This document shows positions 3,623 to 61,249 of a stretch of 64,000 nucleotides of DNA, in pieces; the first letter of the stretch is position 1, and each line of letters starts with the position of its first letter. The notes under the pieces are model-generated. The model was not told where the DNA came from. It worked only from the letters and a program-made list of their open reading frames with translations, and did no database searches. Origin of the DNA: Marchantia polymorpha subsp. ruderalis (taxonomy: Eukaryota; Streptophyta; Marchantiopsida; Marchantiales; Marchantiaceae); the NCBI GenBank assembly GCA_037833965.1, contig AP031353.1, positions 9,860,501-9,924,500 on the forward strand. The letters are read 5' to 3'. The translations under genes and the position numbers were made by a program.

Positions 3623-3658
3623 TACTACTTCTCACGTGCAGAAATGTGAGAAGTAGTA
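3623..3658. repeat. Perfect inverted repeat, 13-nt arms, 10-nt spacer
   Basis: Arm TACTACTTCTCAC at 3623-3635 is exactly reverse-complemented at 3646-3658. It lies in AT-rich spacer with no gene nearby. It is one of a set of such structures in the window. Confidence 0.9.
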
Positions 3659-4451
3659 GACCTTTTTTTATAAGTAATAAATGATGATGATTGAGAGTTA
3701 ATACATTGACATAACTAGTATCTTCATTTAAGTTATAAATGTTAACGGCTTACAGTAAAGACACTAGCTGAATATAATTAATATGTCATAATAATTACAA
3801 CTCTGTTGTCAACCTAGAACTTTGTCCGCTTATGTAATGTCCGCTTCGTCATCTAAGAAGTGGAAAGACATAAGAAAGAGTTTGGTGGTATTCAAGGCCG
3901 AATATAATCCACATTTTGTATTAGTTGATGTCAATTGATGAAGAACTTTGTAACATCAACTGATGTTTTTGTCTTTTATGTACGTATATTTGAACTTATG
4001 AAACTTTAGAACTGTGAATCTAATGAAAGTATTTCAAAGACCAAACGGTAATACAATTAGACTGTGATTGTGTTCTGATATTTGTGGGGCCGGACAACAA
4101 CACAACATACTAGCGTTGTAGATGGGCATTCGAGATGCTAAAAAAAAAATGAACAATTTAGAAACATCAAGCAATAATTACAATGTTAAATATGTCAAAT
4201 TCCAATTGAAGTAGTTCCATAATGTGTTGTTTCAATGATCACAAGGTATACTTTACTTTACAAGTAGTAGGTTGACAACCACCAGTGATTAAAATTACGA
4301 ATTTGTGTTGTTGTACATCACTTGTTGTAGAAAAAATTAACTCATATTCATCTTATAGTAAGTTCATTTGTTATTAAAGAACTAAAATTTCAAACTTCTT
4401 GCATTTAGAACTTTTTATTTTGTAAATTGAATTTAAATTCTGAAATCCTGA
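3659..4451. other. AT-rich intergenic DNA
   Basis: No coding region. It holds short direct and inverted motifs, such as TTGATG/CATCAA pairs around 3,925-3,965. It may be decayed transposon sequence, but no family could be assigned. Confidence 0.4.
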
Positions 4452-5060
4452 TGTTGGATAAATCTTTTTTAACGGCCAATGCATGAAAATACATAAATCA
4501 CAATCCGACAAGAATATACATGAATTTCACTCTCGTATTATGTTCACATGAACAACAAGATCTTTATTGAAAAAACTGCTTACTATTTAGTGCGAGCTAT
4601 GGCTCGCTGTACTATTTATACATGATAGCCTAAATCCTTAGGTCTAATCTAACCAGGATGAAGTATAAATGCAGAGTTAAGAAAAGTCAGGTTAACTAAA
4701 GTTTCATCCAAGATTCAAGTTAATACTAACAATCTACTCATTAACACATAGCCAGAACAATAATCTCCATAATGTATATATTGATTATGTAGTTATATAG
4801 ACTTGCAGTAAATTGTAGAAAAAAAATTCAGATATGCTACTCTTTAAACTAAAGCTGCTTAAAATTACGACTTAGCAAAAATAAGATAGAGTAAGAATAT
4901 GGAGCTAACACAATTTGCTAGTAAACTTTACTTGTGCTTTTTATGCAAAACCTGCATAGTATTATAATGTTTCCTAAAACTATTCAAAGTTATAAAAATA
5001 ATCAATGCGTCAACTGGATTGAGTATATCATCAATCTTCACTACCTCAATACTTTTATAA
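4452..5060 (-). mobile_element. LTR-like repeat copy (probable retrotransposon LTR, minus orientation)
   Basis: Read on the minus strand this stretch has a TATAAATAG box (4612-4620) followed by an AATAAA signal (4562-4567), and it ends in CCAACA at 4452, the layout of a plant LTR. Blocks of it are visibly similar to 62,715-63,345 next to a copia pol remnant. An example is the block around 4,915-4,970 (GCTAGTAAACTTTAC ... ATGCAAAACCTGCATAG). Both ends are uncertain: I found no target-site duplication and no primer-binding site. It could also be a non-autonomous repeat. Confidence 0.4.
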
Positions 5061-5244
5061 CACATTTTGTCTTTGAAAAAAATTACTTGATGTCTATGTG
5101 TTTCATTCTATTTTTCATCCATTTTTCTTGCAAACAACAATTATGATTATAATGTTTTTAGTCATTTAAAATTTGTTGCCATCAATTGTTAAGATTTAAA
5201 ACTTTTTTCCCCTTAAATTCCCACTAGTGTGGCGTTGTTCGCGC

Positions 5245-5294
5245 TTCTAGCCGCAATGTGTTTAATGTCTTGTCTAAACACATTGCGGCTAGAA
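5245..5294. repeat. Perfect inverted repeat, 20-nt arms, 10-nt spacer
   Basis: Arm TTCTAGCCGCAATGTGTTTA at 5245-5264 is exactly reverse-complemented at 5275-5294. A degenerate direct copy of the left arm and spacer lies at about 5,343-5,377 (CTTCTAGCTTTGATGTGTTC), so the unit was also duplicated in tandem. It could fold as a strong RNA or DNA hairpin. Confidence 0.9.
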
Positions 5295-5550
5295 TTCAAG
5301 TTGTTTTGTATGATCGGTCTTGGATAGGACGGCTAGCGCCACGCTTCTAGCTTTGATGTGTTCAAGGTCTTGTACAAGTTCAATTTGTTCAGAAAAACGA
5401 CTAATTGTATGTGTGAATAACTAGTAGTAATCAAAGATTTGATCATGATTAGTCTCATCATACTAAGTTTAGCTAGTTATGACTAAATCTAGCTATTAAA
5501 CCTATATTCATTGAAATAAAAAAAATAATTCTAGATGTTATGAGTGAGCA

Positions 5551-5619
5551 CTATCATTTTGTTTCTTATCAACGTCTAGACGTTGATTTTAAGTCGAGAA
5601 TACTCGACTACATGATAGT
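5551..5619. repeat. Nested palindromes
   Basis: A 16-bp perfect palindrome, CAACGTCTAGACGTTG (5570-5585), and a small GTCGAG/CTCGAC hairpin lie inside outer arms ACTATCAT (5551-5558) and ATGATAGT (5612-5619). The layout resembles a tiny foldback element or cruciform. No coding content. Confidence 0.6.
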
Positions 5620-6883
5620 TGATGGGTTTGATTAAGAATAGAATTTCAATGAGTTAGATTAAATTTTATGTTGATTATATGAAAAAAATAAATTCTAATC
5701 GTTTGAAAATTTCAAATGACATATCACCATCTCAACATAGAGATAAAAAAAAACTTCTAGAAAGTTAAAGAATACCAATGTACTATTGTCACTTATTAAA
5801 AATTAGACAAAAATATTAAAATTTATCTTAATGAAAATAAATAAGATGATAAAAACCATATGATACTATGTTTATTTCTGAGGTAATATATATGAAAAGA
5901 TAGAGAAGAAAATTTCAAACAAGTTTAAAAATTTCAACATATAAAAACTCATTCTATCAATAAAAGATTGAGTTATGTTATCATTTTGGAATATGGAGGA
6001 GTAATTGAATTTGAATGATGAACAGATTGATCTTGGATTTAACCCTAACAGATGTCATGCTTTGTGAAAATTATAGCTGAAGTAACTTTGAACATCAGCA
6101 GGGCGATCTTGAAAGCAAATACTTTACCAATGGCACAGTATTTCGCTTCAGACTTGGACGACGATCCCAAGCAGCAACTGCCGGCGGTAAACCCAACGTA
6201 CCGAAAATGTCAACAAAATGGGCTTCCAATTCATGAACAATGTTACTGTAAATGGAGAAAATCATGAGTTCCATGAAGTTCAAGCCAGAGCAAGCATGTG
6301 ATTTTCGATACTCCAGCACCGTCGCGGGAATCTCCATCCCTGACATTAGTGGTGCTCATCTTCTCGTTGAAAGTACCAGTCACAACACAAATACATAACA
6401 CTCAATCGCTATGAATATGACCACTCTTTCAACACACATCTCCACGTCATTTATGGCTAAGAAAATTTCGATAATTTCATAATACATGTAATAGCGAGAT
6501 TGCGATAACTTTCTTATGGATTGTAGCCACTTTCTTTCGCCTGTCTTGGTCTAGAGCCTTTTCAGTCTCCCATCCCATCTGTCGTCGGAATAATTCCTAG
6601 TATAGTACTCCCTTCATCGCCTTCTTCCTTTTACTTAGCTCTTTGCATGTGAAAGATCCTAAATTATGCCTACTCGTTATGTCAGAGTGATTCTATAACA
6701 TGAGAGCTGAGAATTAGAAACGTATGTGGATTGTGGGATATCCATTGCCAATGTGAGTGGCCATAGGGATTTGACGGTGGATTTACGGTGTGGATGGTCT
6801 ATACTATCTTTGTGGATGCCACTTAAAGATTTGAAAGTAGTGCCACTAACCTTCTCATTATTGCCGAATACGTTTGAGGTTGT
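5620..6883. other. AT-rich intergenic, possible decayed element
   Basis: No conserved gene. The part from about 6,700 may be the upstream portion of the gypsy remnant that follows, but I could not recognise a domain in it. Confidence 0.4.
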
Positions 6884-7640
6884 GTGTGTTCAATTGTTTC
6901 GCATGGTTCGCATATCAATAGTAGTATGAGATCAAATTTATTGGTGGAACATCATGATACATCAATCGCTGTGCATAAGGGAAGAGAGGCTACATTGTAC
7001 AAGCTGAAGCAAGGTAATGAGTATTGGCCAAGATTGGAAAGACTAGGGAATAATTGGACACCTAGTTGTATAATTTATGAGCATAATCACAAACCCGGCT
7101 CTCATAAGGTTGGATTGTAGCGACCATCAATTGATCCTGATGAGCCTAGCCAGTCTTAGGCCATAGAGTCTGTAGTTGGTTTTCTGAATTTCAGGGATAC
7201 AATATCATCTATGAAGTGTGTGATTAGTTGTAAAGTAATGTTCATCTAATAGATTGAGATCACATTCATTGCTTTAGAGACTGCACGTTTGCTATAAAAG
7301 GAGATTCACTGACATCAGAGACAACGAAGGGCTAGTATAGGATTGAGATTCTAAGTTTCCATGTGACTTATGGACCAATTTATATTAACAAGCAATCACA
7401 ACTTTTCTTTTTCACGTCATATCATCCTCAAATTCAAACTGAGTGTTTTATTAAAATGATCATGGAAGGAAGTCTACGGAATTATGGTATGGTAGACTAG
7501 AGCTATTGTATGAATGACTATGAAATTACAGATTCGGTCTGCCCAGAGACTAAAGCACTAACTATCGCCAATGCTCTAATGTTGGAACGCGAGATGAAAG
7601 GTTTGCTAGATGTGCACAAGTCACGTATCCAGAAAAGTAT
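6884..7640 (+). pseudogene. Ty3/gypsy-type pol remnant: integrase zinc-binding and core region
   Basis: Frame 6884-7120 reads HHDTSIAVHKGREATLYKL, then YWPRLERL and SCIIYEHNHKPGSHKVGL, the H2C2 zinc-binding head of gypsy integrases (consensus HD..aGH.G..kT...l...yWP......sC..C...K). About 300 bases on, another frame reads SYHPQIQTECFIKM, matching the core motif AYHPQTDGQTE, and ends at a stop near 7,500. A stretch to about 7,640 (TIANALMLEREMKGLLDVHK) fits the next part of the polyprotein. The second cysteine pair is damaged, and frameshifts and stops separate the blocks, so this is a dead copy. LTRs were not found. Confidence 0.7.
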
Positions 7641-8405
7641 ATGGTGATGCGTAAGTATGACCAGTATGAATATGATAAGTGGTAGCCTTGTCCGACCGAC
7701 CAGTGAGAGAGAGGGGAGACCCTGGCTCAGTGTCACTGGTGGGAGTGTCATGGATAAATGGAAGGGAAAATTACTTTGGCCATTGAGGTATCAGATATTT
7801 TTTAGTCTCCCCTCCTTGTCTTGTCCAACCATTCCACAAATTCAATGGACTTGCGGCGTTTCATGGCGTAAATATGGGTTTCGACATGGTCAAAGAAGCT
7901 GTTCTCTGTGGACAACACCCCTTCTGGTGAGAACAATCGCCAGTTTGGTTCTTTTGTTACAGATGTGGCAGACTGGTAGCAATTACCACTAGAGCCTGGT
8001 GGCTTTACCCCAAATCATAGTAATTCTGAGGCCACTAAACAAATCGAATCCTGCTGAGCTTCACGCGCAGCTCTTGACGGTACCGCGAATCGAGCACGGG
8101 AGGATTCACGTGTGGATGTGTAATGGTTTTATTGGTAATGGTTTTATTTACAGCGCAGAAGATTTGCATGTTTTGTATTCTTCCGCGATAGTTCCTGGAG
8201 AGCAGAAAGTGCGATACAATTAGACTCTGGGCGAGTGGAGACTCTACCTCCTTCAGTTGGCTTGACTTCCCTCGGCTGTCCTGGCAAGGTGCCACATTCA
8301 CAGAGGGACGCGTGCCGAGGACCTTGTTGGACTGCATGAGATAGCAGCCAATCTTTCTTCGACATTTGTCAGACTTGGAAGTGATTGTGAGAAGAGTGTT
8401 GCCAG
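7641..8405. other. Intergenic, possible upstream region of the next gene
   Basis: No gene recognised. The region becomes less AT-rich toward 8,200-8,400, as expected for leader or promoter DNA of the gene starting at 8406. It contains a short direct repeat, GGTTTTATT, near 8,125-8,150. Confidence 0.4.
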
Positions 8406-9285: not shown

Positions 9286-9376
9286 AGTGGATAGTTATTT
9301 TCGCGCCACTTCATCTTCTGTTTAGTGTACATACAAATGAATTCAGAGAAAGAAAAGGTCCAATTTTTGTAAATTT

Positions 9377-9382
9377 AATAAA
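9377..9382 (+). terminator. Candidate polyadenylation signal AATAAA
   Basis: AATAAA 92 bases after the stop codon of the small gene at 8406-9285, in a T-rich context typical of plant 3' ends. Confidence 0.45.
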
Positions 9383-13611: not shown

Positions 13612-13640
13612 CCAAAGGTGGCAAATCCTGCCACCTTTGG
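13612..13640. repeat. Perfect inverted repeat, 12-nt arms, 5-nt spacer
   Basis: CCAAAGGTGGCA (13612-13623) is exactly reverse-complemented at 13629-13640. It lies about 0.9 kb upstream of the phosphate carrier. Confidence 0.85.
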
Positions 13641-14157
13641 TTGATACCTCGGAGCCTCCAGAGATCGATAGCCTCATTCCACCTGCATAATTTCTTCCGT
13701 ACCGCTCTTACGATCTCAGTAAGTCATGGCAGTTCTTCGAGGTCCTCTTGACTGTCTAGAACCAAACCCGAGCACAGCAAACTCGTTCGATTCCAGAGAG
13801 AGAGCATTCCAAATAACTCCGCAAAATTAAAAAGGACGTCTTAGTGAATTCATCAATGAAGAATTCACTATGCTCGCACCGAACCGCTACGAAGACTCCT
13901 CCCACTGAATGCTACCGCTCACAATTCCACGCTTCTCCTTTCGTGCTTCAGGGTCGCGCACTTACCGACGGGCACGACGAAAAGTTTACAGAGGAAGCTG
14001 AAATTCGCTCATTTCTCTGAGGCTGCGAATTCGAGGTGTCCTCATTTCCACAATCCAGCCCGCCAATTAATTGCATCTCTTCGAAATTAGTTGCTCGGTC
14101 TGGATTGTAGACATCGGAATTCCCACAATCCAATTAATCGCATCTCTCACGCTCGAT

Positions 14158-14221
14158 TTCATTCGGTACTACTCTCTACGAGTCAGTCTTTCATTCGGTA
14201 CTACTCTCTACGAGTCAGTCT
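14158..14221. repeat. Tandem duplication of a 32-bp unit
   Basis: Positions 14158-14189 and 14190-14221 are identical copies (unit starts TTCATTCGGTACTACTCTCT). Just upstream a looser pair, CACAATCCA...ATTGCATCTCT and CACAATCCA...ATCGCATCTCT, suggests an older duplication. Both lie in the likely promoter or 5' leader of the phosphate carrier. Confidence 0.9.
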
Positions 14222-14406
14222 CCCGAATCCGTCGGAGTGGCAGAATGACGAGCTATGTAGACGGCAGCCGGGGCAGGCAGCGCCACGTTGCCAGCGGAGG
14301 AGCACGCCACTTGGACCGCCATCTGGAAAGTGGGGGCCGGGCCTAGCCACGTGGCAGCAGCGGCGTCTGCGCTGGGCGCGGTCCGAATGGCGGACACCTC
14401 GCAGCG

Positions 14407-14449
14407 AGCTCTCATGAAGCTCGCAGAGCGAGCGACCTTCATGAGAGCT
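14407..14449 (+). repeat. Stem-loop in the leader of the phosphate carrier
   Basis: Arms AGCTCTCATGAAG (14407-14419) and CTTCATGAGAGCT (14437-14449) are perfect complements, with an inner CTCGC/GCGAG stem closing on an AGA loop. The structure ends about 100 bases before the start codon at 14551. If transcribed it would be a stable GC-rich hairpin in the 5' UTR. An effect on translation is possible but not shown. Confidence 0.7.
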
Positions 14450-15768: not shown

Positions 15769-17085
15769 CTAGATGCAGAGAAATGCATTTACTCCTCCTC
15801 GTCCTTGGCCTTCGTTTCGATCGTCTTGGATGCTAATGGTTGTGAGCGTTGTGCGGATTCCTCCACTCACTTTTGTGAGCATGTGAGATAGCCATGTGAG
15901 CCTGCCAGTGCGCTTGCCAAGGAAGTGATACGTGGTATCGTGGTCGTCCATGCGGAGACAGAGGCACATTTTCTATTCCGTCCCCAGCTCGAGGGCGGAA
16001 GAATATATTAGTTTCCACGGGCAAAGTCTTCATCATTTAAAATCTGACAAGTTCAAAAGATCTGCTTTTATGGCTCTGTCTCTGGACTTTATGAGGCCCA
16101 CTGGACCGCTGCTCTCAGCGCAGGTGGGCAAAGGTGGCCAAGAGGAGGGAGGTTGAGGGACATCGCCCGCAGAACTTCGTTGCGGACGAAGACCAACTTG
16201 AGAGCGAATGCGCTGTCCGTGATGGTTTGGGGGTGCGAAAAGGCCACCCCATCGAGAGATGTTCCACAGTGAAGGGTTCGAGACCATGAAAGTCTCCATT
16301 GTTCTACATTTTGCATTTTAACATGACAATCCACTAGATAGCAAAACCGTGTCGAATAATTCTCGATGCAGTTGGCGATTAGTTACCTCTGTATTTTGTT
16401 GGTTGCTTTGTGCACTTATGGACTTTCACAGTCTAACTAAAGCGCCACTTTTGAAGCTCGTGTCGGCCCAGAGCAGCATGTCATTTATCATGGCAGATTT
16501 ACATGCAGAGTGTCTTACACTATCGACTATAAGGGCCTCCGTAGCGGTTATGCTTTACTATAGTCTTGAAGAACGTGCTTGTATGATGGAATACATAGCT
16601 ACAATAACATGTTACGTCTCTAACTTCGTTCCAACAAATTTGCTTCATGGGAGGGAGCAGGAAACAAGATGGAGTATATACATTTGGAATGAGTTTTGAC
16701 TTGGTTAAATTTCCCATAAATCATCTGCCATCCTTTCGAGTGCAAAGCTTTTTAATACCAATTTTGTAATATTCTTACATCCGATTTTAACTGAGAGGGA
16801 TGGCATATAATTTATGTGAATTTTAGCCAAGACAGAATCTAATGCAAATGGGTATACTACCTCCTGAAGTCACTTTTTGGGAGTCAAGTTCAAATAAAAT
16901 TCTATCTTGTTCCTGCAGCTATATAATCCATTATACAAAGTACTTTCTTCACCACTATCATCGTCCAACTCTCAGAAGCGATTAATTCTGCAATTTCACA
17001 TTTTTCTAACTAGCACGATGTCAAACTACTCATTTGAATCTAAATTGGTCAAAAGCCACACTGATGATCGGCCCTCATTTAGAAA
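15769..17085. other. Intergenic, 3' flank of the phosphate carrier
   Basis: GC content falls steadily after the stop. No gene recognised; short frames on both strands lack similarity or domains. Confidence 0.45.
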
Positions 17086-17134
17086 CACTGACAGTTAAAT
17101 GTCATTTAGAAACAATGACATTTAACTGTCAGTG
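17086..17134. repeat. Perfect inverted repeat, 19-nt arms, 11-nt spacer
   Basis: CACTGACAGTTAAATGTCA (17086-17104) is exactly reverse-complemented at 17116-17134. The spacer repeats the bases just before the left arm (TTTAGAAACA), so both a direct and an inverted copy of local sequence are present. Confidence 0.9.
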
Positions 17135-21302: not shown

Positions 21303-24300
21303 ATGGAAGGGAAGATGGGAGTTCGAGCTTTGCAGATTCTCAGAGCGAGAGCTTCTTTTGGCAGCGTGAATTTCGCCCGGGGTTTCGCGGGGTCTGCAGA
21401 TCGAGAAGGAGCGGAGACCAGACTCTTCGCACCGTGCGAGCGCACGGTGCGAAGAGATTCTCTGGCTCAGAGCGGAAGAATTGTGGCTCCGGGCATCCAT
21501 TCAAGGCGATGGAACAGCAGTGTGGCAGCATCGTCTACAGGGGCTGTTCTGGGACCGCTGAAGGGCAACAAGGCGGACGTTGCGATCATCGGCGGAGGAA
21601 TTGTCGGACTGGCGACTGCGCGGGAGATCACCCAAAGGTTCCCCAAACTGTCCGTCGTTGTCTTGGAGAAGGAAAACGATCTCGTGAGGCACCAAACATC
21701 ACACAACAGGTGGGTAATTTGTCGAGCCCTAAACCCTTCGTCGAGCACCGCCTTAGAAATTCGAGGCCGTCGATCTTATAGCTTTCGCGAAGTTCGGTTT
21801 CTCTGAAAAGTATTGAACGATTCGACGAGCACAGGTGATGATCGACTCAGGGTTGTGCGGATTCTGCGGTATTCATACAGCCGAAATGTTTCTCGTTGTG
21901 GAGTTGTGCTCGGTAGAACACAATCTGATATCTTTACGTCGCAGCATGCACATTGCTCGTGTACTGCGCGAGTGAGATCAATCAACTACGTACATGCATT
22001 CATCCAAGGGACCGTGGGCATGGACTTCCCAGACAAGAGGCTGGTGAACATTAAGATTTGGAATTTCAAATCTTAGCATTTGATTTTGATGCTGAAAAGG
22101 GGGGTCTGTAGGTTGTCAGAGTTACAAGTTTTGAGACGGACTAGCAAATTTCGAGCTTTCATGGTCTTCACAGAGAATCCCTTTTACAGCGATGGTGTAA
22201 TACGAACCTACTTTGCCATAATATCATAACTTCTCTAGGGTTTCGTTTGGCCATGGCTTCAAACTTCATCTGCGAAGTAAAATTCGATAAAAAAAAATAA
22301 AATGGAATTTGATCGAGGAAGATGGGATTTCAGTGGAGTGATTCATGCAGGTATATACTACCAGCCGGGTACCGAAATGGCCAGACTTTGCGTTGATGGA
22401 GCTCGAAGAATGTACAAATATTGCGAAAGAAATGACCTTCCTCATGAACGGGTGGGCAAGCTAATAGTCGCCACACGGGAACGAGAGCTGCCAGTGTTGG
22501 AAGATCTGCACCAAAGGGCGACTGCCAACGGTGTGCAAGGTCTTGAGCTGCTTAGCCCGAAGCAGATCACCGACCTGGAGCCCAACGTCAGGGCTCTTCG
22601 AGCTCTTCATTCTCCGAACACTGGCATCGCAAACTATGCCAGAATTGCGTTATCTTATGCAGACGACTTTCTCAGAAACGGACGAGGACAGATACGGACT
22701 GGGTACAAGTTCCTCTTCATTCAGCCCTTCTATGCCTTACAATAGATTCTCGAAACATTGCTCTTAATTTCGATCTCAGATTTCTTTCACAGTTCATGCA
22801 CACGACATCATCTGCATGCTTATCTAATTTTGTTGTTAGGATTGATTGTGATGCTGTTGTGAAGTATTTCATCCTATTGCAAGTTTTCAAGGTAAGAATC
22901 GAACCGTGCTGCACAGAGTGGTGAAGAATGTGTAGGTTTATTGCGTCGGAACCTGTGAAAATAACAGTGGCTTCTTTCTCTTTCGCTGCATGCAGATTCA
23001 ATGCAAAAAATGTATCTGCAGACGAGGTTAAAGGTGTAGAAGTGCAGGCTAAAACCGGGGAGACAGTGAAGGCCAGATGGCTGATAACTTGCGCGGGGCT
23101 GCAATCGGACTACGTGGGGAAAATGGCTGGTGGTGCCAAGGGTCCTACGGTGCTTCCTTTCCGGGGCACTTATCACGAGCTGAGACCAGAGTTCCGTAAT
23201 CTAATCAAACGCAACATTTACCCAGTGCCAGATCCAGCGTGAGCATATTTTCCATTGTACCTATTCAAGTTTGAAAGCGTTTTCCGTTGTTCTTGCAAAT
23301 ACAGCTACCTGGTCGAAAAATAGCTTCATAATATCAGTCTCCACTGACATAAAATGAGGCCCCATGTCACTGGATTGTAGCGAGGCTAAGCAGTAAAGCT
23401 CGCCAACCTAAATGCATGATTCCTACCATTTCTCTAGCCATTTTCATCTTGTATTGCAGGCCTACACACAACATATTTTGTGTAGGGCAGGAATGATAGA
23501 TGATGTAGATCCAGATGGTCTGTTTGTATGTTTCTCGGGATGCTGTAACCTTGTCTGTTGTGGAAAAAATTGGAGATAATTACATATACTAAACCTGAAT
23601 TTTGAGCATGCCACTGCACGCAAACTCATGAGGATGTGATTAATCTATGCGCAGATTCCCTATGGTGGGAGTCCATTTGACACCACGAACGGATGGACGA
23701 GTTCTGATTGGTCCTAATTCTGCGCTAGCTCTGGCAAAAGAAGGTTACAAATTCTGGCACGTCAATTTGAAAGATGCCATTACGTTTGGATTGAACAGAG
23801 GACTTTGGAAGCTTGTCCTCGGAAATCCAGGTATTGTCTTTCAAGAGATCTGGCGAGATATCAACACCAAAGCCTTCGTTAGAGAAGCACAAAGGTGAGT
23901 TTATCCTTTCGGTTCTCATTGCCTGTTATACAAGGCAGTAACCTGCAGAGTTCAAATCAATCTGCAAACTCAGGCTCATCTTACTAAATGCGGGTTGAAT
24001 GAGTCGTGTCCGTGTTGGCTTGTATGGTACCTGTTCTTCATCAAAGACCTCCCGGTTAGCAGAGTAGGAATGGAGGCCATCTTCTGGCAAAATATAAAGA
24101 AACTCAAATACATAATTATGATGTTAGGAGTACCTTTACCAACTTTCGAATGGAAATTAGTAAGGCCATCCTATTTCTAGTTTTCTGGAGACTCATGATG
24201 AAGAGAGCATTCAGATGTGATAAAGTAGGCGGAAAAAATCTTAAGTTGTCCGAATACGAGTTTTTCCAAACGGGGTGGGTGGATTTGGGAGATTCAAGAT

Positions 24301-27481: not shown

Positions 27482-30400
27482 TCATTTCATCAGAAGGGTT
27501 GTTTGTGCGATCATCGAGGTGACGATGTAGGGGTCCATGTTTGATGCGGGACGGCGATCCTCGAAGTAACCTGAACAAAAACACACAAGCGAAAATTGGA
27601 AACCACAGTCAGTCTCTCAGTCTCTCAATTCTCAGTTTCTCAGTCACTCAGTCTCTCAGTTCTCAGACTCTCAGTCACTTCAGTTTCCAGCTCCGCCTTT
27701 CATGGCATTCTAATCGGCAATTCCGATTTTGTCGACGCCCGAGCAGTTCTGAAATCCATGGCCGAAGCTCACTGTATCAACTCTGCTGTAAACTATTTCG
27801 ATCCGCGGCTTGAGCTGAGGCCTGGGTCCACTCCACTCCACTCCACTCCGAGGGCTGATTTACATCGCCTGTGTGACCTCACCTTCCTGGCTCACGTCAC
27901 GGAAGAAAAGCGCTGCGCATCGTCGTCGATGAGGACAAAGGAAAGTGAATACGAGTGGAAAGCCATCTTACCCTTGCCATCCTTCTCGGTGTCGCGGCCA
28001 ACGCGGACGGATGCACCACGGTTAGCGACTCCCTGCAAGACACACGAGAATTCCGGAGTGAGCTTCAGCAGGCAGGCAGGCAGGCAGGCATGTCCAAACA
28101 GCGCCATCTGGCTGCGTTTCGAGAATCTGGCCAAGCATTGCGGAGGCAACCGCAGCGAGGTCGTAGGTGGCCAGCGCCGAAATTGATTCATGCCAAGCCT
28201 TAAAATAGCTTTCGGTCGGACAAGTTGAACCTCGATTGTCGGTCCCTGTAGACACTGACATCATTGACATCGCAGCCAGAGCAAGAGTACGAGAGGGGTA
28301 CCCATGAGAAATTGTTGATGGACGCAGTCTCGTGCTTGCCGGTCAGACGGCGCTCATTGCCTTCACCGTACGCAGCGATGTGTTCCTTATGCCTCAGGCC
28401 CAATTTCTCGATGGCCTTCTTAATTTCGGCGTAGCCTCCCTCCTCGCGCATGGTCTTCGTACTGTCATCACCCACCACACACCATAGCCCCCGTCAGTCG
28501 GCCAGCTCAGCCTGCCCACCCTGACATGTCCTCTCGAAACCACCCACAACCCACTCCCACCCCATTCCAATTCCAGAACGCAGCAGCTTCCGCTCGGGAG
28601 TCAGTACAACGACGTGCATGAATTGCGGCTGTTACCTGTAGTTGGTGTGGCATCCGGCCCCGTTCCAGTCTCCCTGATACATACAGAGCACCGACGAGCA
28701 CGTCAGTGCGAAAACTGATCGATGATGGAAACAGTTCCAATTGAATGAAGAAAAATCCACTGCTGGATGGCCTGGAAGGGCAAGCGTACCTCGATGGGCT
28801 TGGGGTCGAGCGAAAGGACGACTCCTGCGATTTCCGTGATCCTCTCGAGAATGTAACGCGCGGCCCAGAGCTGGTCGCCGGCGGCGATGCCGACGGAGGG
28901 ACCTACTTGGAACTCCCACTGCCACAACCACCATCATCCCAGTCCACAGGTCAGAAGGCGACTCCGACTTGCTGAACATGCTGCGGGCATGGGCAGTGGC
29001 CCGATCATGCATGTGCCCGAAATTTGGCATCAGTCCTGCAGAGAGCAGGACTGATGCCAGTGCTGTCAGTGGGCACGATGAATCGAGATTCCTCCGGCCT
29101 GGCCTTGTGGAAGGTCCGATCGATTTACCTGTCCCGGCATGACCTCCCCGTTGATGCCTCCAATCTGGATGCCTGCGTACAAGCAGGCCTTGTAGTGCGC
29201 GTTCACAATGTCTCGGCCCCAAGCCTTGTCTGCTCCAGTCCCGCAGTAGTAGGGTCCCTGCAGACAGCGAACGATTTGGCAGTCAGTACAGAAGTCTCCA
29301 TGCTCTGGATGTGTACAGTTAACCACTTAGAATTTATCCCTCGGTGCATAAAGAAAGAAGACCGACCTGGGGTCCAGGGTAGCCATTCAGCGGCCAGCCA
29401 ATTGGCCACTTCACTTCCTTTTGGAGCAGAGTGTACTCCTGCTCGATGCCGTACCTGTAAAATCAACCAGCCAGCAGTATAAGTTCACTGCGATGGGAGT
29501 GGATTGAGTCTGCGGGTTGAGAAACGATTATTCTCTGAACAAATTGGCAGACATTTCTCCTTCAGGTGTTCAGCATTTCGTGAATTACTGTGAGCTGATA
29601 TATTAAGAGTGACTGAGACGTGAGGGCTACAGACCATGGCTCTTCCTTGACCACGTCAGGGTTGCTGAAAATCTCGGCTGCAGCAGCACGCTTGTTGGTG
29701 GGGATCGGCACGCCTTGTGGGGTGTAACAGTCGCAGACAACCTGCGTCCGATTATCGTCAGCAACGATGTCTCTCTCGTAACTGGCCTCCCGATACCAAT
29801 TTCGCAGAATACAACTACTTCCTACACCTTCTTGCAACGCATAACGAGCCCAGAGATTTTTGGCAAGGCAATAAAGTGACAAGTAACGCTTCGAAACTGA
29901 TAGTAGCACATACCAAAATGTTGTTTCCCCTGCGGAATGGATCCCTGAAGATAGCCTGGGGGCTGCGCGTGGCACCAAAGAAAAGCCCACGTTAACATCG
30001 ACACCATGCGCAGCAGTATTGACAAAAATGCAGAATTTCGCAAGCTTTGCTGCGGAATGCATTATTGCGATTCTGGATAGAACAGGCCGCTAGCTGAAAC
30101 TTCTTACTAGAGAATGACTTCGCTGTCCTTTCCGGGCGCTTGACCGGTGCTCGATCCGTCGTAATTCCACTTGGGCAATTCGCTCGGGCTGCTGACAGGT
30201 CCGGGAAGAGTCTGAACGAAAGAATTTCAACATGTAAGAAACGGAACAGTCCTCGCACCGTCGTCTATAATTTCACAGCTCTGTCTGCGAGACGCTGAGT
30301 GCGCTTTCTTCGTAATAATCAACGATTTGGACACACAGAAACTGCTCGGAACACATGCAACTCTCGCAGCTGCAGTGCTTGAAGTTGGTTGGCGCCGGGC

Positions 30401-35480: not shown

Positions 35481-37602
35481 GAAAGCTATGGGACCTAACT
35501 GACAGCCATCTGTACCTGACAACATTCGTGATAAGGGAAAGAGTGTTCGAGGTACTCTTATCATGTTGCTTATCGATCGTTGTTTTGTTTTTCTCTGGAC
35601 CTAAGCCGAAAATTAATTGTCTCCGTGAAGTCTTGCTGCAGCGCTCATTGGTACTTTTTCCAGCCTATCAATGAACACCCAGTTACTCCATAAGAGCACA
35701 ACATTACTGCGGCTATCAATACAGATATTAGCCTCTTCTGTTTTGTACCTCCTCTGTTTTTTTATCCTCTCGTCCATTGTCTGGCATCGATGTTGAGCTT
35801 AGAAGTTAGTTAGTTAGTTTCTTCGTTACTGAGTTGTTTCGGAGGGATATCAGAACGCTCTAGACTCTTCGTCCGATTGACTTTCATCCTGTCCTCGGTC
35901 CACTACTTGTCTTACATATGTGTAAAGAATTCGCGAATCTTGAATGGGATCCATAAGTCACTCAGCTCAAAACTTCACACATCCAGCTCCTCCTTGTGCA
36001 GGTTGCTTCGTATGTTACATCTCTAGGTTTACAAGTCGAACGTGTTCCGTTGTGTTGTGAATCCACTGCAGGAATCCGTGTGCTTTCTTCCCAGCTTCGT
36101 AGCAAGATAGAAGATCATATTCACGACCTACTTTCCTGAATTCAGGGCAATTGCAAGTCACGTGCTATCGGACAACTATCGACGCAGGTGAGCAAAGTGG
36201 GGTCGCACCATCTCTGAACAAATGGCATTTCTTTCTACTTCTTTTAGCGACTCTCATCCCAGCTATCTGGAAGAGCTAAATGACCTACTGCAATTACCAT
36301 TCAATTGAAGCTAGCTTGAGTGAGCTTGAGTGTGACGGATGTCTTCTGAAGGTACATGTTCGTACAATTGATCGGTTTCTCATCTGAGTAAACTGACATG
36401 TGCATTCATCCCTACCTCATCCCAAGGAACATCGTCTGATTTAACTGAAATGCACGACAAGATGATTTTCCTTCTTCGTAGATGTACTTGTCCTGAGACA
36501 ACTCGGTTGGTGTTGGCAAGCAACAATCGGATAAGTTTTGAGAGCTGTAATGAACAAACACAGCATCTGTAAACCTTGACATCGTTTAAACCGTCAAGTG
36601 GGCATTCACTCTGACCTCCAGATGAACTAAACAGATCAAAACTCTTCTGCTCTGCCGACGTGACAGGAGCAGATCGTCCTCTGTGATGATGATGTTCAGA
36701 AGAAAACTCTCGTATGCTCTATGTGTAGTTTCATATATATATATATATATGAAAGTTGTTTGACGATCATCAATGCATTGGTCCCTTCTGTAACAGTAGC
36801 TAGCATAACTGTCGTGGCCGTGAATCAAGAACCCCTCATCAGTTTTGACAATAACCCACTCACCAAAGGCTTGTGTCTTGACCAAAAACCTATCAGCAGT
36901 GAGTGTTGGGCTAAATTACACAAGGCCTTCGTTTTCTGGTCTGTAAAATTTGGTCCCATGGCCTGGCCTGCTGGGTTGCAGGTTTGAATGGCAAACCGAA
37001 CTCAGCAGTTAAGACAGAGCTGCGCCTCTTTACTCACCTGAGCGCGAGAGTATTACAAACTGGATGGACGAGTCACAGCACAGCCAAGTTCAGGAATTCC
37101 TGCACCGTGGGAACCGCATGACAATACAATTCACATCGACATGACATGACGACGGACAGTAACGACACTGCGATAACAACATAGAAAGTGTCAAAGCTCG
37201 AACCGGAGCGGGAGGACAAAATCGTCTTCAATGAGTCCATGGTACTTTCAAGCTGTACCAACAAGAAAGACATCAGGTGTCACCAGGTTTCCTTGTGCAA
37301 CTCATGAATTTCACTCCCGTACAAGAGGAACCTGATGACCATAATGAATATTCTGAACCAGGACGATAGAGACACATTCTTGCGCCCGACAATGTCAATC
37401 CCGACAGGTAAAAGCCCGACAGTCCGCTCCTCTGCGGAAGAGGAGGCCCACACGCGAGAGAACAGGAGAACGACCCAAAATCTCAGACTCCATCCTCGAC
37501 CAGACCAGAACCTGACGCTAGCTTCGATCCAAGTTCAGTGCACCCATCGTGGTATATCCCAGGAATCCGTGTGCCGGTAAAATCTCCAGCTTTTGCATCC
37601 GA
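35481..37602. other. Intergenic, nothing recognised
   Basis: No domain-bearing frame. It includes GTTAGTTAGTTAGTT near 35,810 and a palindromic AT run TTTCATATAT...ATATGAAA near 36,728-36,753. Confidence 0.45.
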
Positions 37603-37638
37603 AATACGAAACTGCAATTCGTATTGCAGTTTCGTATT
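37603..37638. repeat. Perfect inverted repeat, 15-nt arms, 6-nt spacer
   Basis: AATACGAAACTGCAA (37603-37617) is exactly reverse-complemented at 37624-37638. Confidence 0.9.
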
Positions 37639-44900: not shown

Positions 44901-46514
44901 ATGTCATAAGACAAAGTGTTCATTGAGAAAAATACCGTATATGAAACCAAGGTGTGTATAAGGAGAGTATATTTCAAACGGTGTAAGGTGCGTATGAAAT
45001 GGCCACTGACACATTCTCGATGTGGTATCCAGGTACTGGATTTTGGATTCTGCCTCTTGACAAATATTTCTCCTTGCTCCAAGTCAAAATATTAATTTTT
45101 TCCGTACTCTTTTTTTTCTGGGGAGGACGTCATTCCGTAGTGTTTATTGTTGTGCAGCCCGCGCGCAGATCATGATCATTTAGCACTTTATGTGCTTTGC
45201 TTTTTTATTTCATCAAAGGCTGGAGCACTTTCGTTGCCAGTTCTTTTGGATATTCGGCATATTGTTCTCGTTTCAGAGAGAGAGAGAGAGAGAGGAGAAT
45301 GTGGATGTTTATTCGGTGCAGTTGTTGTACTGGTGGTTCGCCCAAATGATTTCATTCAAATTTGAACACGTCAGGAGGAGTCAGAGTTTTTTTTTAAGTT
45401 TTTTTTTTTTTTTAGAGTATTAGTGAAGGAAGATCTCTGCCCTACGGTTCCTAAGCGAACCTCTCAGGCATACGGTGAAGAAACTTGCATATCCACCACT
45501 TGTTATGACTACTTACTGTCTGACAATAGTACGTTAACTGTTAGGACCACTTGATGGGATCCTTACTGTCTAGCGATCCAGAGTTATTGCAGATTTGCAA
45601 ACACAATATCCGCTCGTAATGAGTTTGACACTAGACTATGGAAACCCAGACCTCATCATTTCACACGTAGATGCATTTTTAGATCATAATATACATGCAA
45701 TCAGAGGGTACGTTAGCGTGAAATAGAGTAATATAGCACAGAGCATGGGAAGACCCTACATGTCTTTTACGGATGAAATCAGAAACCAAAGGATTAGGAT
45801 GGGGCTAGCCCAAGAGCATCACACCGAGAAATCTTTACCACCTGCAATATTCCGACTATATATGTCATCTTACAAGAGGTGCCCATTAGAACCTAATGTG
45901 ATTACGTCATATGTGGCATTGATCTGGTTCCTTTGGAGCAACTATTTGCTTGAGTTGGCTACCTAATGTGCTAAACAAAATGTTACCCATGTTAATGAGT
46001 ATTGTAGTTTAATCTGCATTCTTTTCAGCAGACCTTTCGAAGTATTTGTATCATAGTCCTTGAAAAAGTCTCTATATTTAACCACACTCGCCACTTATAC
46101 TCTTTGCCTATCCATAAAGAAAAGTATGTACGTGTTTGTTTTTCACATCTTTGAAATTATATAACCTACAATCATACAATGACCTAAAAAAAATGTAATA
46201 TGTTGTGAGTGAATTTTTTAACATGTAAGTTTTGATAAGCATACAAAGTAATACACTTTTTACCTTAAAACGAAGTATAGATTTGCATTAGTCCAAATTT
46301 ACTTTAAGGCATATCAATACTCTTTACAAAGCTATGAATCTTAACAAATCTGGATCTAACAAACACAACATCCTGAATTATATCATGATTAGCTAAACTC
46401 AGCTTTCCAAACTCTAAAAAATATGATTAACATAAATATAATGCGTATATGAGATATTAACATCATTGAGGTGTAGAAAGATGTAGATGAATTAATAATG
46501 TATATGCCCATATT
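41901..46514. other. Intergenic, no gene recognised
   Basis: Mixed composition, falling to AT-rich after 45 kb. It has a GA microsatellite at about 45,276-45,296 and poly-T runs near 45,390-45,412. Frames such as 43,992-44,222 and 45,745-45,966 show no similarity I can name. Confidence 0.45.
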
Positions 46515-46540
46515 TTTTATTGACTTAATAGTCAATAAAA
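46515..46540. repeat. Perfect inverted repeat, 11-nt arms, 4-nt spacer
   Basis: TTTTATTGACT (46515-46525) is reverse-complemented at 46530-46540, in very AT-rich DNA. Confidence 0.75.
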
Positions 46541-46725
46541 ATTAAAAATAACATTCATAATAGAACCAAGATACATCATTTATATATGTCCAATTTGTAC
46601 ATAAGTCTTACATAAAAAAAATAAGTGTAAGTATGATGTTTCTACATGTTTGATTCATTGTAATATGAAACTTGAGAATTTTGGGTTCAAAAAGAGGAAA
46701 CATAACTTATTGACTTTATATAATA

Positions 46726-46758
46726 AAATATATAGTGATGTAACATCACTATATATTT
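46726..46758. repeat. Perfect inverted repeat, 15-nt arms, 3-nt spacer
   Basis: AAATATATAGTGATG (46726-46740) is exactly reverse-complemented at 46744-46758. Confidence 0.85.
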
Positions 46759-48960: not shown

Positions 48961-48965
48961 CATAA

Positions 48966-49223: not shown

Positions 49224-49228
49224 CATAA

Positions 49229-55068: not shown

Positions 55069-55350
55069 TGTTGAGGTCCCATCTGTTCTCTCCTTTCATT
55101 CTTAAATTAACCTAACTTCAGTTACAATTAACCTTAAGTTTAGACCTAGGGTTTTTCCTACGACGTATATGTAGGGAGGAGAAATCAAGCTCTCCTTGAA
55201 CACCTTGAAGCTTTTTGGTAAAAATTTGATTGTTCTCGTGGATTCCAAGAGTGAAAAATCACATATTTCTCTTGTCGACGTTGTGTAAGCGTGTTCTTTT
55301 GACATTCTTCTCTTTGTTGTGTCTACTAATTCTCATGTTTCTTGTTACAA
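55069..55350 (+). mobile_element. LTR-like sequence, tentative
   Basis: Begins TGTTGAGG like the solo LTR at 48,966. It contains TATATGTAGGGAGGAG, then a CTCCTTGAACACC and CGTGGATTCC stretch reminiscent of LTR leader regions. No matching end or target-site duplication was found, so the call is weak. Confidence 0.25.
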
Positions 55351-55370
55351 AAACCATGAACAAAATCAAG

Positions 55371-55401
55371 CACAACAAAAATTTGGCAAATTTTTGTTGT
55401 G
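55371..55401. repeat. Perfect inverted repeat, 14-nt arms, 3-nt spacer
   Basis: CACAACAAAAATTT (55371-55384) is exactly reverse-complemented at 55388-55401. Confidence 0.85.
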
Positions 55402-57232
55402 TAATTACAATTATCATAGATTTCTATTTCATAACTAAGCCATATATAAACTGAATTAGCCACAACCCAATCGTCTCGCACGAGTGCAAAACCAACTGAA
55501 AACAAACAACGTTATGATACAATATTTAGAGAGAATTGACAAGAACGTCATCAAATTCCAAAACGCCACCACATAGCTAGCAGACTCAAAAAATAACATA
55601 ATTTATATATTCTTACATCTACGTGAACAATAAGGTTTTCTAGAAAAAAAACTTGACATAATGCTCAGGATTGAGCTAGATTTCGCCATACTTTCTCGTC
55701 CTTGTCAACAAAATCACTAAAATCCTAAACTGGATTATACTTAATAATTATTAAAGATTAATTAATTTACATAATTAAATGAAGTTGATGTAATATACCA
55801 TTGAATGTAATTATGTTAAAACTGATAAATAGATATAAAATAATATTATTTTTTCAAAATAAAAAGACCGAGAATTGTAAATAAAAAATTTAATCCAACA
55901 TATAGAATAACTTCTTACAACAAAAATTCTTAAAATTAATTTCGATGTTTAAGATATTTTGTTTTTGAATCTACATTGATAAAAATGATACAAATAATAT
56001 TTATATCTTTTATGACTTTCAAATTATGAAAAGACATCTTTTATTAATTTATTAATTTTTTGATATAAATATAACTTTTTGGCTTAAAATTCATTAAAAG
56101 AAAAGGATTCAGTTTTGCATGTGGAATTTGATTTGATTTAAACATTGAACTTCAAATATAGTAGTATTTTATTGAATTTTTATTCTAAAAAATCCTATAT
56201 ATAAAAATTATTAAGTTTTTATTAGGTCTAATGATGAAGGTAACAGGTATCATTGAAATCTATATATAAGTATCTTGAAAAATAAATATGTTATCATCAT
56301 ATTAATTATTAGAAACTTCAAATTAAGATTCCAAATATATTTTTTTCAAAACTCAAAAAAAAAATTCAGATTGATATAAAATCAAAAATTTTGTGACGAT
56401 TTATGAGCATATTTGGATTTTCAGTACGAAATCAATAATATTTGAAGTTCTTGATTTGATAAAAAGTGTAATTTCATGCTTTTTGATGCAAAGGAATATA
56501 TTTCTCATCAACATGTACAGCAATGAAGAATGCAAGATGTAAAAAATAGGAGAAAATAATATGAGTTTTTATTATTATGGGCGTTCATTCCTATGATTGT
56601 GTTGAGAAGAAATGATACTTTATGACAAAAAAAGTTATTGTTAAGTTAAATGTATGAATTTTTTTCAAATGAAATCGTTTTTGATCATTTAATGTACATA
56701 AATCATACCATCATCACATCATTGATGAACACATAGTAAGAAAGAGTTTAATTATTCTTGAATTTTGTTTACGAAGATAATATTTTTCACATTTCGTACA
56801 TATTGGAAATTCATTTCCAAATTTATGAAGACTTGTACATAAGAGTTTTGAATACTCATCTGAATACATCAAAAAATAGATGAGATTTCATACTATTGAA
56901 AATAAATAAAAAATTTAAAATTATTTAAAATTTAAATTTAAAAAACACTTTGCACATCAATTTTGAGAATGAAATTTTAGTGTTAATTATTATTGAAGTT
57001 GATTATTTCATATATCTTTATACTAAATGACTTATATAGTCATGAGTTTAAAGGAGACATGAAATATATTATTCTTGATATTCAAAAACCTTGTATGCCT
57101 TGATAATTTCCTTCAATTAAAATTTATTAAGTTTATTCATAATTGAATTATAATTTATCAATTCCCCAAATCTATGATGAATTCTTCAACTGTGTTTTAA
57201 ATTTTTATGTTTTCATGATAGTTAATTTGTTT
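55402..57232. other. Extremely AT-rich intergenic DNA
   Basis: No open frames of note. Probably decayed repeats. Confidence 0.45.
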
Positions 57233-57712
57233 CCATTTTTAGAATCATGGCGTTGACGTAACGTGGTCAGCCGAACAGAAAGAGTTTAATCGTGAACTCA
57301 AATATGTATGCAATAAATCAGCAATTTATTTCAAACTGATGATTTAAAGCTAGAGAGTAACATTGAAAGCCAGAAGTGATTCAGAGTTTTTTGAAAACAA
57401 AATCTTTGTTCTTCTTTGATAATTTTCAGTGCTTGGAAGCTTAAAACAATGGTTTCTTAAAAAAAATTTGAGCCATTTTAAGAATCATGGCCATGAGGTA
57501 ACTTGATCAAAGTAACAAAAAAAGTTCGATCGTGAACTCAAAAATGTATGCAATAAATCAGATTGTGATTTCAAAGTAAATATTTAAAGCTAGAGAGAAA
57601 TATTAAAATCCATAAGTCATTTCAAAGGTTAGTTGTAATCAAATTCTTTGTCCTTCTTTTTGCTAATTTTCAGTAGTTTGAAACATAAAACATGTGTTTT
57701 TTTTAAACGATG
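57233..57712. repeat. Tandem dimer with 240-bp period
   Basis: AGAATCATGG occurs at 57241 and again at 57481. The following blocks repeat in order at the same spacing: CGTGAACTCAAA, ATGTATGCAATAAATCAG, TTTAAAGCTAGAGAG, TTTGTTCTTCTTT/TTTGTCCTTCTTT and AATTTTCAGT. Copies are roughly 75-80% alike by eye. No coding content. Confidence 0.85.
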
Positions 57713-59192
57713 ATTTCTTTTGTTGAAAATATACTTCCAGAGTTCAGCTTCTGCGCTAGCTTATTTTATAGGTTCCAATATTTCAAATATTCAACTATAA
57801 AGTATATTTTAAAATTGATTGTAAATTTTGCAAAAGGGTTAAGATAAATCTGATTGAGGAGAACATAGATTTTTTTACATTTATGATCTACTTGAAATTG
57901 AAAATTTCATTCATAAGAATAATAGAATAAATATGTTAAAATTTGTATTTATAGAACTCATATAATCCATTCAGCATTATTCTTAGTTTTTCTTTTAAAT
58001 AAAGATTTAACTAAGATGAAAGATCCACATCAAACAAACAAAAAGTCAAAGTCGATATGATTTGAAGATACAATGCATAGCAGAAAACTAGTTTTATACA
58101 ATTGGAAAGAGATAAATATTAGAAAACAACTATGTTACTAGAAGATCATATGAAAATACAAATGAAAGTTAACACTTACATCTTTGATGACTATTTAATG
58201 TTTAAGCATTTTCATTAATAGCAATGTAGGTGGATAAGTAAGAATATACATAGTGCTAAATTAAGAAAAAATTAGCACTACTAATAAACAACTAAACACT
58301 CATGAAATCTAGAAATGAAACAATCATCATGCAACAATGTACTAGATAAAACATAGGATTGATTCAACTAGCAATACTTACAGTATTTTTTTTCATTATA
58401 ATCTGAACTGACATTCAATTTAAAGTTATTTTAGTTTTATATTATAATGTTATGTCATTCTTATTGAGTTAACTCAAGTCTTGACTAACTCCAGTAAACT
58501 TTATTATAGTTGGTTAGTCCAATTAGCTTACCACTATATGAGGCAAGTAATCAAAATTCTCAATGACGCAGGAAGGTATTTTCAGACATTCAATATTGCT
58601 TTATTGTAGATTCAGTTCGAAGAGATGAATGGTATATCTCAATTTTCGTCTATCAAATTTTGTTCTATGTGTCAGATATATCACATGTGTGAATTTTTCT
58701 TTTCAAGACTTAAATATTTTATAATATAATGTTTCATTCAATTTTCAATAAAAAAACCCATACATTTTTCAATATGTAAAACTTATAACATTATATACCA
58801 CTTTTTATAATTTTAAATTCAATTTTATGAGAATTGGCTTTCCAAATCAAAATATTTTGAAATAATGTTAAAAAATCTAAAATGATTTCATCACGAACTT
58901 TTTTATGAATTATATTAATTTCTATTTTGTGATTAGAAAAATTAATTTTGATTTCCAAAAAAACAATCAATGTTAACTTTTTAGTTTTAAAAGAAGCTAA
59001 AATGTAATGAAATTTTTTCACATAATGCATCATAATGATCATTAATTTTTAAAATTAATTTTAAAATTTAATCTCTGAATATATTTAATGCAGAAAAGAA
59101 TATTATTTTAGAAAAATCACATCAAAAATAAAAATACATTTAGAAAATCTTCAAACTTATTTTTAAAAAATGAATGAAACAATGTTTAGGTA
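57713..59192. other. AT-rich intergenic DNA
   Basis: No gene. A frame on the minus strand at 58,791-59,042 is AT-composition noise. Confidence 0.45.
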
Positions 59193-59699
59193 TTTAATAC
59201 TAGACCTCGGCAAGGTAAGGTAAAAGGTTAGTGGGTAATGCATGGACATTTACCTCTACGTTACCCGATACCTTACCCAACCCACTCCTATCTACTTTTA
59301 CCTTTACCTAAGGATAATACTATAGAATAACATTTCTTTAAAAGTTATACTCTAAACCTACCCGTCTGAAAGTGCAATCTTGAACCGTACCTCCTTGTAT
59401 ACTAAGTGTCTCCCGAATGGATTCTACCCGAATCCATTTATTCCGCAACGGAATTCATAAATCGTCGAGGATTTATTGAAGTTTAGTGATGAGATCGGCG
59501 TGACAGAAGCATAGATCGTAGAAACATTAAGTCGTCCAATTTTGACGGGTAGAGTCGATTTTGCTTCTTAATCATGGTGTTGTCGGCGTCATAAAAATTG
59601 CATTTTGATTTAGCGCTGGAAGCAGGAATGGCTAAAACATAATGAACAAATCGAGAAAAGATGAGAAATGAGTTTTGTTGAGTCTTACTCTAAAAGAGA

Positions 59700-60960
59700 A
59701 GACCGTGCTCCTTGATGATGATGTCACTGTCCTTGAAGCTGTGGAGGAAAATATTGAGCCAGTTCAAATTTCACAGCATGCGCTTCGATTGCAATCTGCT
59801 CTAACCTATCGATATGTACGGCTGCTTCTCCTTCGTTGTCGTCCGAGTCATCTTTCTCGATGTGCTCTGCCAACTGCCGGCGACCACACACATGATTCCT
59901 CTTAGGCTTCTTGAAAGTACAGCGCTCGTCATAATCTTGGTCATGTTTAGGAATGTGCTCTTTCATCAATGATTTCAAATTTTTCTTGGCCTTGCCAATC
60001 TAGTCCTTGGATATGCCGTACTTGACGAGGCGGCGTCTATTTTTTGGATCAAGCAATACAGCGATGACGTGATTTGTTGGATAATGAACTTTTTCTCGAG
60101 TAAGTGTCGAATGATCGATTTGATGACGATGATGTGTTTTGAGTCCTTTGCAATCTAATTATTGGTGCCGTCACTCGCCGTGTAGTTTACGTACTCAGTG
60201 ACCAGATTGCAATGAAGTAGTATGTTGTGCATGAAGTAGCACACGCATTGAAGCGTCAGCTGTTTGAATACTCCATGGCGAGGTACTTTTCCTAGAACGG
60301 CCGAAGGAACGTGATGAGCTCCAGCAGCATCTCCTCGTCAATCTGTGCGATCTCCGCCACTTCTTGACTATCAACGTCATCACGAGCTGTTCATAAGCAT
60401 TTGCGATGCTGCTCTGTAACAAGAAATTTCATCGAGTTACATTCTTCTGCTTGATCGTCTTATCTAGCTCTTCTTGGAGATCATACTGCTTGACATACGT
60501 GGTAAGTGCCTTGCAACGATCGATCAGATAGATTAGATCTTGAGTAGATTCATAATGCTTGTAGAATGGAACGGATTTCTTACTGTCGACTTGCTTCGTT
60601 GTGTTGGCGAACACAGTCATGATAATTGTTGCAATGATGTGATCGATGCATGTAGACTAATTATAATAGCTCGGTATATTATCTTGTGCGTGCATATTGG
60701 ACCCTCGATCGCTGAAGACGGTCACATTAGAAGTATCCATGATAGAAAATTATTCCAGTATAGACCGAACCTTGATCGAGACTATGCAAGCAGTATGACA
60801 GAATGGACAACATGTCAAGATGCGATGGGGCAGAACTAAATCATAATTGATCAGGTGGCTCTTGACGGACATGAACAATGTTTTATTGATATTGTCTGTC
60901 CAGATCTTGATCGTATTCGCCATCTTAATGCCTAATTCGGTCTTGTGGAAGAACTACTTG
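59700..60960 (-). pseudogene. hAT transposase remnant
   Basis: Reading minus-strand frames from right to left: IKIWTDNINKTLFMSVKSHL (about 60,930-60,860) fits the hAT block with D-x-WT; VTVFSDRGSNM (about 60,730-60,695) fits the catalytic TDRGSN block; CKALTTYVKQYDLQEELDK and IKQKNVTRWN (to about 60,425) fit the VxYxKxxxLxxxLxxxxKQ..TRWNS block; and LLEKKFIIQQITSSLYCLIQ (about 60,107-60,045) fits the dimerisation region. Frameshifts and stops separate the blocks, so no active transposase is encoded. Confidence 0.75.
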
Positions 60961-61196
60961 CAGCACAATGTGCACTATCGTTGTTGGCGTTGTTGAACAT
61001 GATCGTTAACCTCCCAAACTTGGCTATAAGCTCAAGTATAGAATTGTCGTGCTCGTTTGCGCTTCGAGTTGACAACATGTTGCACATCGTCGCTACGAGG
61101 CACGGCCGTAGGCAGGGATTCGTCATCGCAGAGCATGTCCTGCACCGCAGAGTAGTTGCGGCCACTAGTGCTCATAATCTCAGTGTTTCTCAAAGA

Positions 61197-61249
61197 ATGA
61201 TGAGTTGCGTGATGAGTTTGACAATCAAATTCATCACGCAACTCATCAT
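61197..61249. repeat. Perfect inverted repeat inside the hAT element, 19-nt arms, 15-nt spacer
   Basis: ATGATGAGTTGCGTGATGA (61197-61215) is exactly reverse-complemented at 61231-61249; pairing continues with one mismatch into the spacer. Confidence 0.9.

Follow-up and report, generated by a model that had tools for sequence, protein, structure and literature searches.

Closely spaced inverted repeats in a 64-kb stretch of a Marchantia genome as probable scars of a recurrent local mutation

Perfect inverted repeats (IRs) with closely spaced arms are far more frequent than expected by chance in a 64-kb stretch of the Marchantia polymorpha subsp. ruderalis genome (241 Mb in nine contigs), namely bases 9,860,501–9,924,500 of contig C4, referred to here as the window. 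The IRs are concentrated at short spacers and have no common sequence, and in two repeat copies that were compared with their sisters a single arm was gained. We consider it very probable that such hairpins are the scars of a recurrent local mutation. In the process that we favour, a DNA 3' end, lying where a fork has stalled or a break has been resected, would fold back or switch strand within about 20 nucleotides (nt), copy some 10–21 nt of the opposite strand, and then either return or be joined to the far side, leaving a reverse-complement copy that adjoins its template. The hairpins would then decay neutrally, as we infer for the window IRs other than the one at 61197 discussed below (loci of the window are named by their start positions). 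This is a known kind of mutation, found at a density ordinary for plants.

Maximal perfect IRs were searched for exhaustively across the window, and chance was modelled by dinucleotide shuffling, with 200 shuffles each in 300-base and in 1000-base blocks. With arms of at least 13 nt and spacers of 0–20 nt, 11 IRs were observed (including an AT-rich palindrome at 36729), as against 0.10 and 0.12 in the shuffles of the two block sizes; with arms of at least 15 nt, there were 8 where 0.01 were expected. The chance figure of 0.02 given in the original prediction was thus about five times too low, while its conclusion of an excess is unchanged. The same DNA provides an internal control: at spacers between 21 and 400 nt, a span of 380 lengths, only 2 pairs with arms of at least 13 nt were found, and the 21 lengths from 0 to 20 nt yielded 11. 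Spacers of 401–800 nt gave 12 such pairs, 10 of which begin in low-complexity sequence at 40.5–40.8 kb. The small number of pairs at longer spacers indicates that the excess belongs mainly to closely spaced arms. A purely compositional origin, with AT-rich or simple sequence making chance IRs locally common, may apply to the palindrome at 36729 and to an IR at L009:163, both of which are TA-rich. Outside such TA-rich cases it is already contradicted, both by the internal control and by block shuffles that keep local dinucleotides and yet yield about 0.1, and as an account of the excess it is almost certainly wrong.

The excess extends to the rest of the genome. In 18 pieces of 10 kb (180 kb, at round coordinates chosen by hand), 11 non-simple IRs with arms of at least 13 nt and spacers of up to 20 nt were found, as against 0.10 in 60 shuffles. 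A density equal to that of shuffled sequence is therefore ruled out for window and sample alike, and chance or composition is rejected as the source of the excess. Three of the 11 IRs come from a GC-rich repeat with the recurring palindrome CCTGTGCACAGG, leaving 8. At spacers of 21–80 nt the sample holds 7 pairs with arms of at least 13 nt, of which 6 are again the CCTGTGCACAGG repeat and one lies at L011 (14-nt arms, 61-nt spacer). Five further pieces (50 kb; the first five of 60 drawn at random beforehand) contained 2 IRs, both in one piece and none in the other four. The GC-rich repeats are several kb long, lie at L013, L014, L015 and L017 on contigs C7, C8 and C9, and are 70–98% alike in parts; the palindrome CCTGTGCACAGG recurs in several of them and is common to copies. 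These four pieces were removed before the age-spectrum, direct-repeat and 204-kb inverted counts reported below.

IR loci are about 3.6 times as dense in the window as in the sample: of 20 loci in 294 kb, 10 lie in the window's 64 kb (P = 0.005). This comparison excludes 36729 and the three repeat loci and concerns a window selected for looking rich. Despite this higher density, a phenomenon peculiar to the window can be rejected, as the genome sample carries the excess too. Coverage by IRs with arms of at least 10 nt and spacers of up to 8 nt, counting simple TA runs and the palindrome repeat, reaches 5.33 bp/kb for the window and 4.82 for the 180-kb sample, with 0.39 and 0.37 in the respective shuffles. 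A survey of 118,019 genomes reports a mean of 4.22 IR bp/kb for Plantae, with Streptophyta showing the largest effect among the eukaryotes studied (PMC13155455). By that measure the density found here, being close to the Plantae mean, is ordinary for plants. The genome-wide excess of perfect IRs described there concerns the same object as the IRs of this study, although AT-rich IRs predominate among the eukaryotic ones of the survey and most of those listed here are mixed in composition; the text of the survey never uses the term "template switch" (PMC13155455). Our results offer a concrete mutation behind this published excess in plants.

Ancestry of the arms was examined within the genome, where copies of the same repeat served as relatives. 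Two copies outside the window, L028 and L038, carry IRs that are private to them. They were compared with their sisters in family F2 (14 copies, 9,110 bases), which was fetched because L028 had already shown an insertion. The IR of L028 has 11-nt arms and a 4-nt spacer; 12 of the 13 sisters have 10–11 of the 11 bases of its left arm and the remaining one has 8, while its right arm finds only 1–2 of 11 bases in all 13. In L038 (17-nt arms, 4-nt spacer), the left arm is present at 12–16 of 17 bases in 8 of 13 sisters and at 1–10 in the other five, which have gaps or have diverged at this place, and the right arm at 0–2 of 17 bases in every one. In the L038 alignment about 7 nt are replaced by about 22 nt; cases that bear in this way on polymerase theta-type templated insertion are few. 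For L028 and L038 alike, the left arm is the ancestral one and the right one was gained in a single step. According to the original prediction, the IRs reflect a mutation that recurs and transfers a few bases to the opposite strand, in which case one arm should prove to be a recent insertion; these two clean private gains among the genome's repeat copies support it, and the window itself contributes a probable case of a hairpin being perfected.

That case is the IR at 61197–61249 (19-nt arms, 15-nt spacer), which lies within a dispersed repeat of a family related to that of L028 and L038, with sister copies L019–L024. All six sisters possess shorter, imperfect hairpins at the site, with best pairings of 9–14 out of 10–16. 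The left arm is found at 15–18 of 19 bases and the right arm at 14–15 of 19 in all six, and the window copy departs from the sisters in its outer right arm in such a way that the pairing is perfect. The IR probably began as an imperfect hairpin and later had its right arm rewritten to perfect pairing, a change known as quasipalindrome correction. Such perfecting of imperfect hairpins has been described in PMC7954356. The sister copies also bear on whether the IRs might be artefacts of assembly or library preparation, such as fold-back chimeras from amplification. This is highly improbable, as mismatched, aged versions of IRs exist, as the 61197 hairpin has imperfect forms in six sister copies, and as most reads of every locus would presumably have to carry the identical tiny chimera for it to enter a consensus assembly. 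In some of L019–L024 a second small hairpin stands beside the one at this site, and hairpins may be part of the element's own biology. By analogy with these cases, the other 11 listed IRs of the window would have arisen likewise. The sister-tested examples, from within one plant genome, show how a near-perfect hairpin can arise in a single step.

Repeats abound in the genome and 61197 sits within one, which would suit an origin of each IR as a tiny mobile element, or its remnant, of the foldback or miniature inverted-repeat transposable element (MITE) type. However, no 8-mer is common to the arms of the 12 listed IRs, and a flanking repeat of 2–10 nt, as expected for a target-site duplication, was present in none of the 10 IRs tested; hence the IRs do not form a MITE family, and the claim that the loci are unrelated to each other holds. 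Searches with the IRs at 37603, L002 (two IRs), L004 and L008 gave no second copy, and no scored copy spans the IR at 5245 (40 scored out of 608 candidates) or that at 17086. For 46514, 46726 and 55371, no second copy occurred among the 39 scored out of 1,012 candidates, which is a weak absence, and for 3623, 13612, 14407, 21423 and 29025 the comparison covered 244 kb of sequence only. A single foldback family is ruled out by the arm comparison and the copy searches, and we regard mobile elements as an extremely unlikely source. A very young high-copy repeat was seen at L003:8189–8958, with at least 39 further full-length copies of 98–99% identity among 2,030 candidates.

The numbers of mismatches between the arms provide an age spectrum of the IRs. 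In 194 kb (L001 having also been removed), IRs with a score of at least 13 numbered 10, 7, 3, 3, 1, 2, 2, 3 and 1 for 0 to 8 mismatches, with a shuffled background (two shuffles) of 0, 1, 2, 0, 1, 0, 1, 0.5 and 1. A simulation of neutral birth and decay (1 : 0.27–0.53 : 0.07–0.31 : 0.03–0.16) gives proportions similar to those of the first four classes. As the fall-off at low mismatch numbers is what neutral decay predicts, selection is not required. Retention of the IRs by selection, as small-RNA precursors, regulatory hairpins or cruciform sites, would agree with their perfect pairing and with the presence of imperfect hairpins at the 61197 site in all six sister repeats. Against it stand this neutral-looking spectrum and the lack of an 8-mer common between loci, and arms of 12–21 nt are short for plant microRNA precursors. 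We therefore judge selection a very unlikely explanation of the IRs.

Direct repeats are also in excess. With units of at least 13 nt and gaps of up to 20 nt, 204 kb contained 10 gapped and 9 overlapping rows, as against 0.2 and 0.2 in ten shuffles; the same 204 kb contained 17 inverted repeats (a stricter simple-sequence filter in this count also removed L008:3825). Examples of direct repeats are those at 17075 and 8120 in the window and at L009:3928. The first belongs to a compound locus (17075–17134), in which an IR at 17086–17134 (21-nt arms, 7-nt spacer) is interleaved with a 13-nt direct repeat from 17075. The similar excess of direct repeats and this compound locus make us lean to break repair, so that break repair with templated filler, by a polymerase theta-like process or fold-back end joining, is slightly favoured over template switching at a fork. 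In Arabidopsis, break repair produces templated insertions that are both direct and reverse-complement (PMC5217109).

Several points weigh against our interpretation. There are just two clean de novo gains, both outside the window, and family F2 was chosen after the insertion in L028 was known. Family F1 (8 rows, 11,907 bases) was without any IR of at least 10-nt arms. At L060 (10-nt arms, 2-nt spacer; a family of 13 rows) one arm has perhaps been replaced, background similarity making the case ambiguous; at L039, of the L028/L038 family, an IR with 10-nt arms and a 13-nt spacer lies where the alignment ends and is undecided; and L019, L022, L065, L069 and L073 were compared without a decision on arm ancestry. 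When 5245 was compared with old repeat copies, the IR stretch could not be aligned, and in a comparison of L016 with another locus on C7 the stretch holding the IRs, between conserved blocks, was likewise not alignable. The perfect pairing at 61197 could stem from several small changes, and in two of its six sisters the best pairing is in a different register. IRs inside the GC-rich repeats are mostly common to copies rather than private, and are for this reason excluded from the de novo argument. The age-spectrum count gave 3 perfect matches in its control at spacers of 21–41 nt; as no maximal perfect IR with arms of at least 13 nt exists at these spacers in the window and 130 kb of the sample, those matches are inner-truncated IRs of short spacer. 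Finally, direct tandem repeats arise by slippage too, and scars in sequence would not by themselves separate fork from break.

Several known systems resemble the process that we propose. Short-range template switches, formulated in a four-point model and described in great apes (PMC7954356) and in RNA hairpins (PMC8794818), also create a nearby reverse-complement copy in one step and also perfect imperfect hairpins. The copied length is alike, with a great-ape median of 12 nt (PMC7954356) and arms of 12–21 nt here. That model places the event at the fork, whereas the present cases come from a plant genome and are known from their scars. Fold-back inverted insertions at double-strand breaks in yeast are similar in that they are mostly 5–34 bp long and lie beside their template, but the yeast case relied on an imperfect inverted microhomology that was already in place, 10 bp long and with a loop of 41 nt (PMC11724301); the spacers of the listed IRs are 1–17 nt, and priming homology was not established for them. 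The polymerase theta-type filler of Arabidopsis comprises direct and reverse-complement copies near the break, sometimes compound, as at 17075–17134, the difference being that those breaks were induced and the enzymes are partly known (PMC5217109, PMC10923293), while here there are only evolutionary scars. Among the matches listed in a search of the open-licence part of PubMed Central, no paper described template-switch hairpins in a plant genome.

Perfect IRs with arms of at least 13 nt numbered 17 in 204 kb, and 19 in 254 kb with the random pieces added. With a simulated IR lifetime of about 0.039 substitutions per site, this density corresponds to approximately one birth per 470–520 substitutions; with the window left out (8 in 190 kb), the figure is about one per 900. 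The repeat trees provide a direct estimate: about 6,566 substitutions and two events with arms of at least 13 nt (L038 and 61197), about one-fifth being detectable, correspond to one per 650; setting aside 61197 and its family, which had been chosen for carrying that IR, gives about one per 1,100. Indirect and direct rates agree within large errors, given few events, a simple-sequence filter and, in part, a window picked for richness. It is possible, though on balance doubtful, that inverted templated insertion ranks as a major class of mutation in this lineage, with about one event (arms of at least 13 nt) per 500–1000 substitutions. If so, the genome would keep making new hairpins, which at such a rate would provide ready raw material for small-RNA genes, and the insertions would represent a class of mutation left out by models of plant genomes that consider substitutions and indels. 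Set against known divergences, template switches in great apes are of the order of one per ten thousand substitutions or more. The rate per substitution may be higher here, although methods differ. The great-ape scans found 4,017 events (PMC7954356).

All 12 IRs of the original prediction exist, 10 of them with exact starts and those at 21423 and 46514 off by one. They have arms of 12–21 nt and spacers of 1–17 nt, and each is the reverse-complement copy of a nearby segment. The size ranges given earlier need revision, as the longest arm is 21 nt, two spacers are 1 nt, and the palindrome at 36729–36754 (13-nt arms, no spacer), which may be simple sequence, was absent from the list. Extended alignments lengthen the IR at 3623–3658 (13-nt arms, 10-nt spacer) to 18-nt arms with 2 mismatches and that at 14407–14449 (13-nt arms, 17-nt spacer) to 23-nt arms with 3 mismatches and a 7-nt spacer. 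The IR at 5245–5294 (20-nt arms, 10-nt spacer) has on either side of it a match to an old repeat that is dispersed in the genome. The remainder are at 13612–13640 (12-nt arms, 5-nt spacer), 29025–29059 (15 and 5), 37603–37638 (16 and 4), 46514–46541 (12 and 4), 46726–46758 (16 and 1) and 55371–55401 (15 and 1). Only part of the sequence contexts named earlier was examined, and here the IR at 21423–21456 (16-nt arms, 2-nt spacer) does lie inside an open reading frame (ORF), in the N-terminal part; the match to the Pfam family DAO, of flavin adenine dinucleotide (FAD) oxidoreductase type, is in the downstream part of the same ORF. ORFs of the window match the PTR2, mitochondrial carrier and DAO families, two of the six scanned being without any match.

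A long imperfect hairpin at 16697–16834 (59-nt arms with 18 mismatches, 20-nt spacer) is perhaps an aged foldback, and has one weak 63-nt match elsewhere in the genome. Tandem duplications also occur in the window, one being a perfect 32-bp duplication at 14157–14221, upstream of the mitochondrial-carrier-like ORF, and the other a 109-bp unit at 63126–63338, present in two copies with 82% matches. A TTTAGGG array at the end of contig C7 fits a plant, and a short stretch of telomere repeats occurs on C3, distant from contig ends (G000:C3:4038742-4038776).

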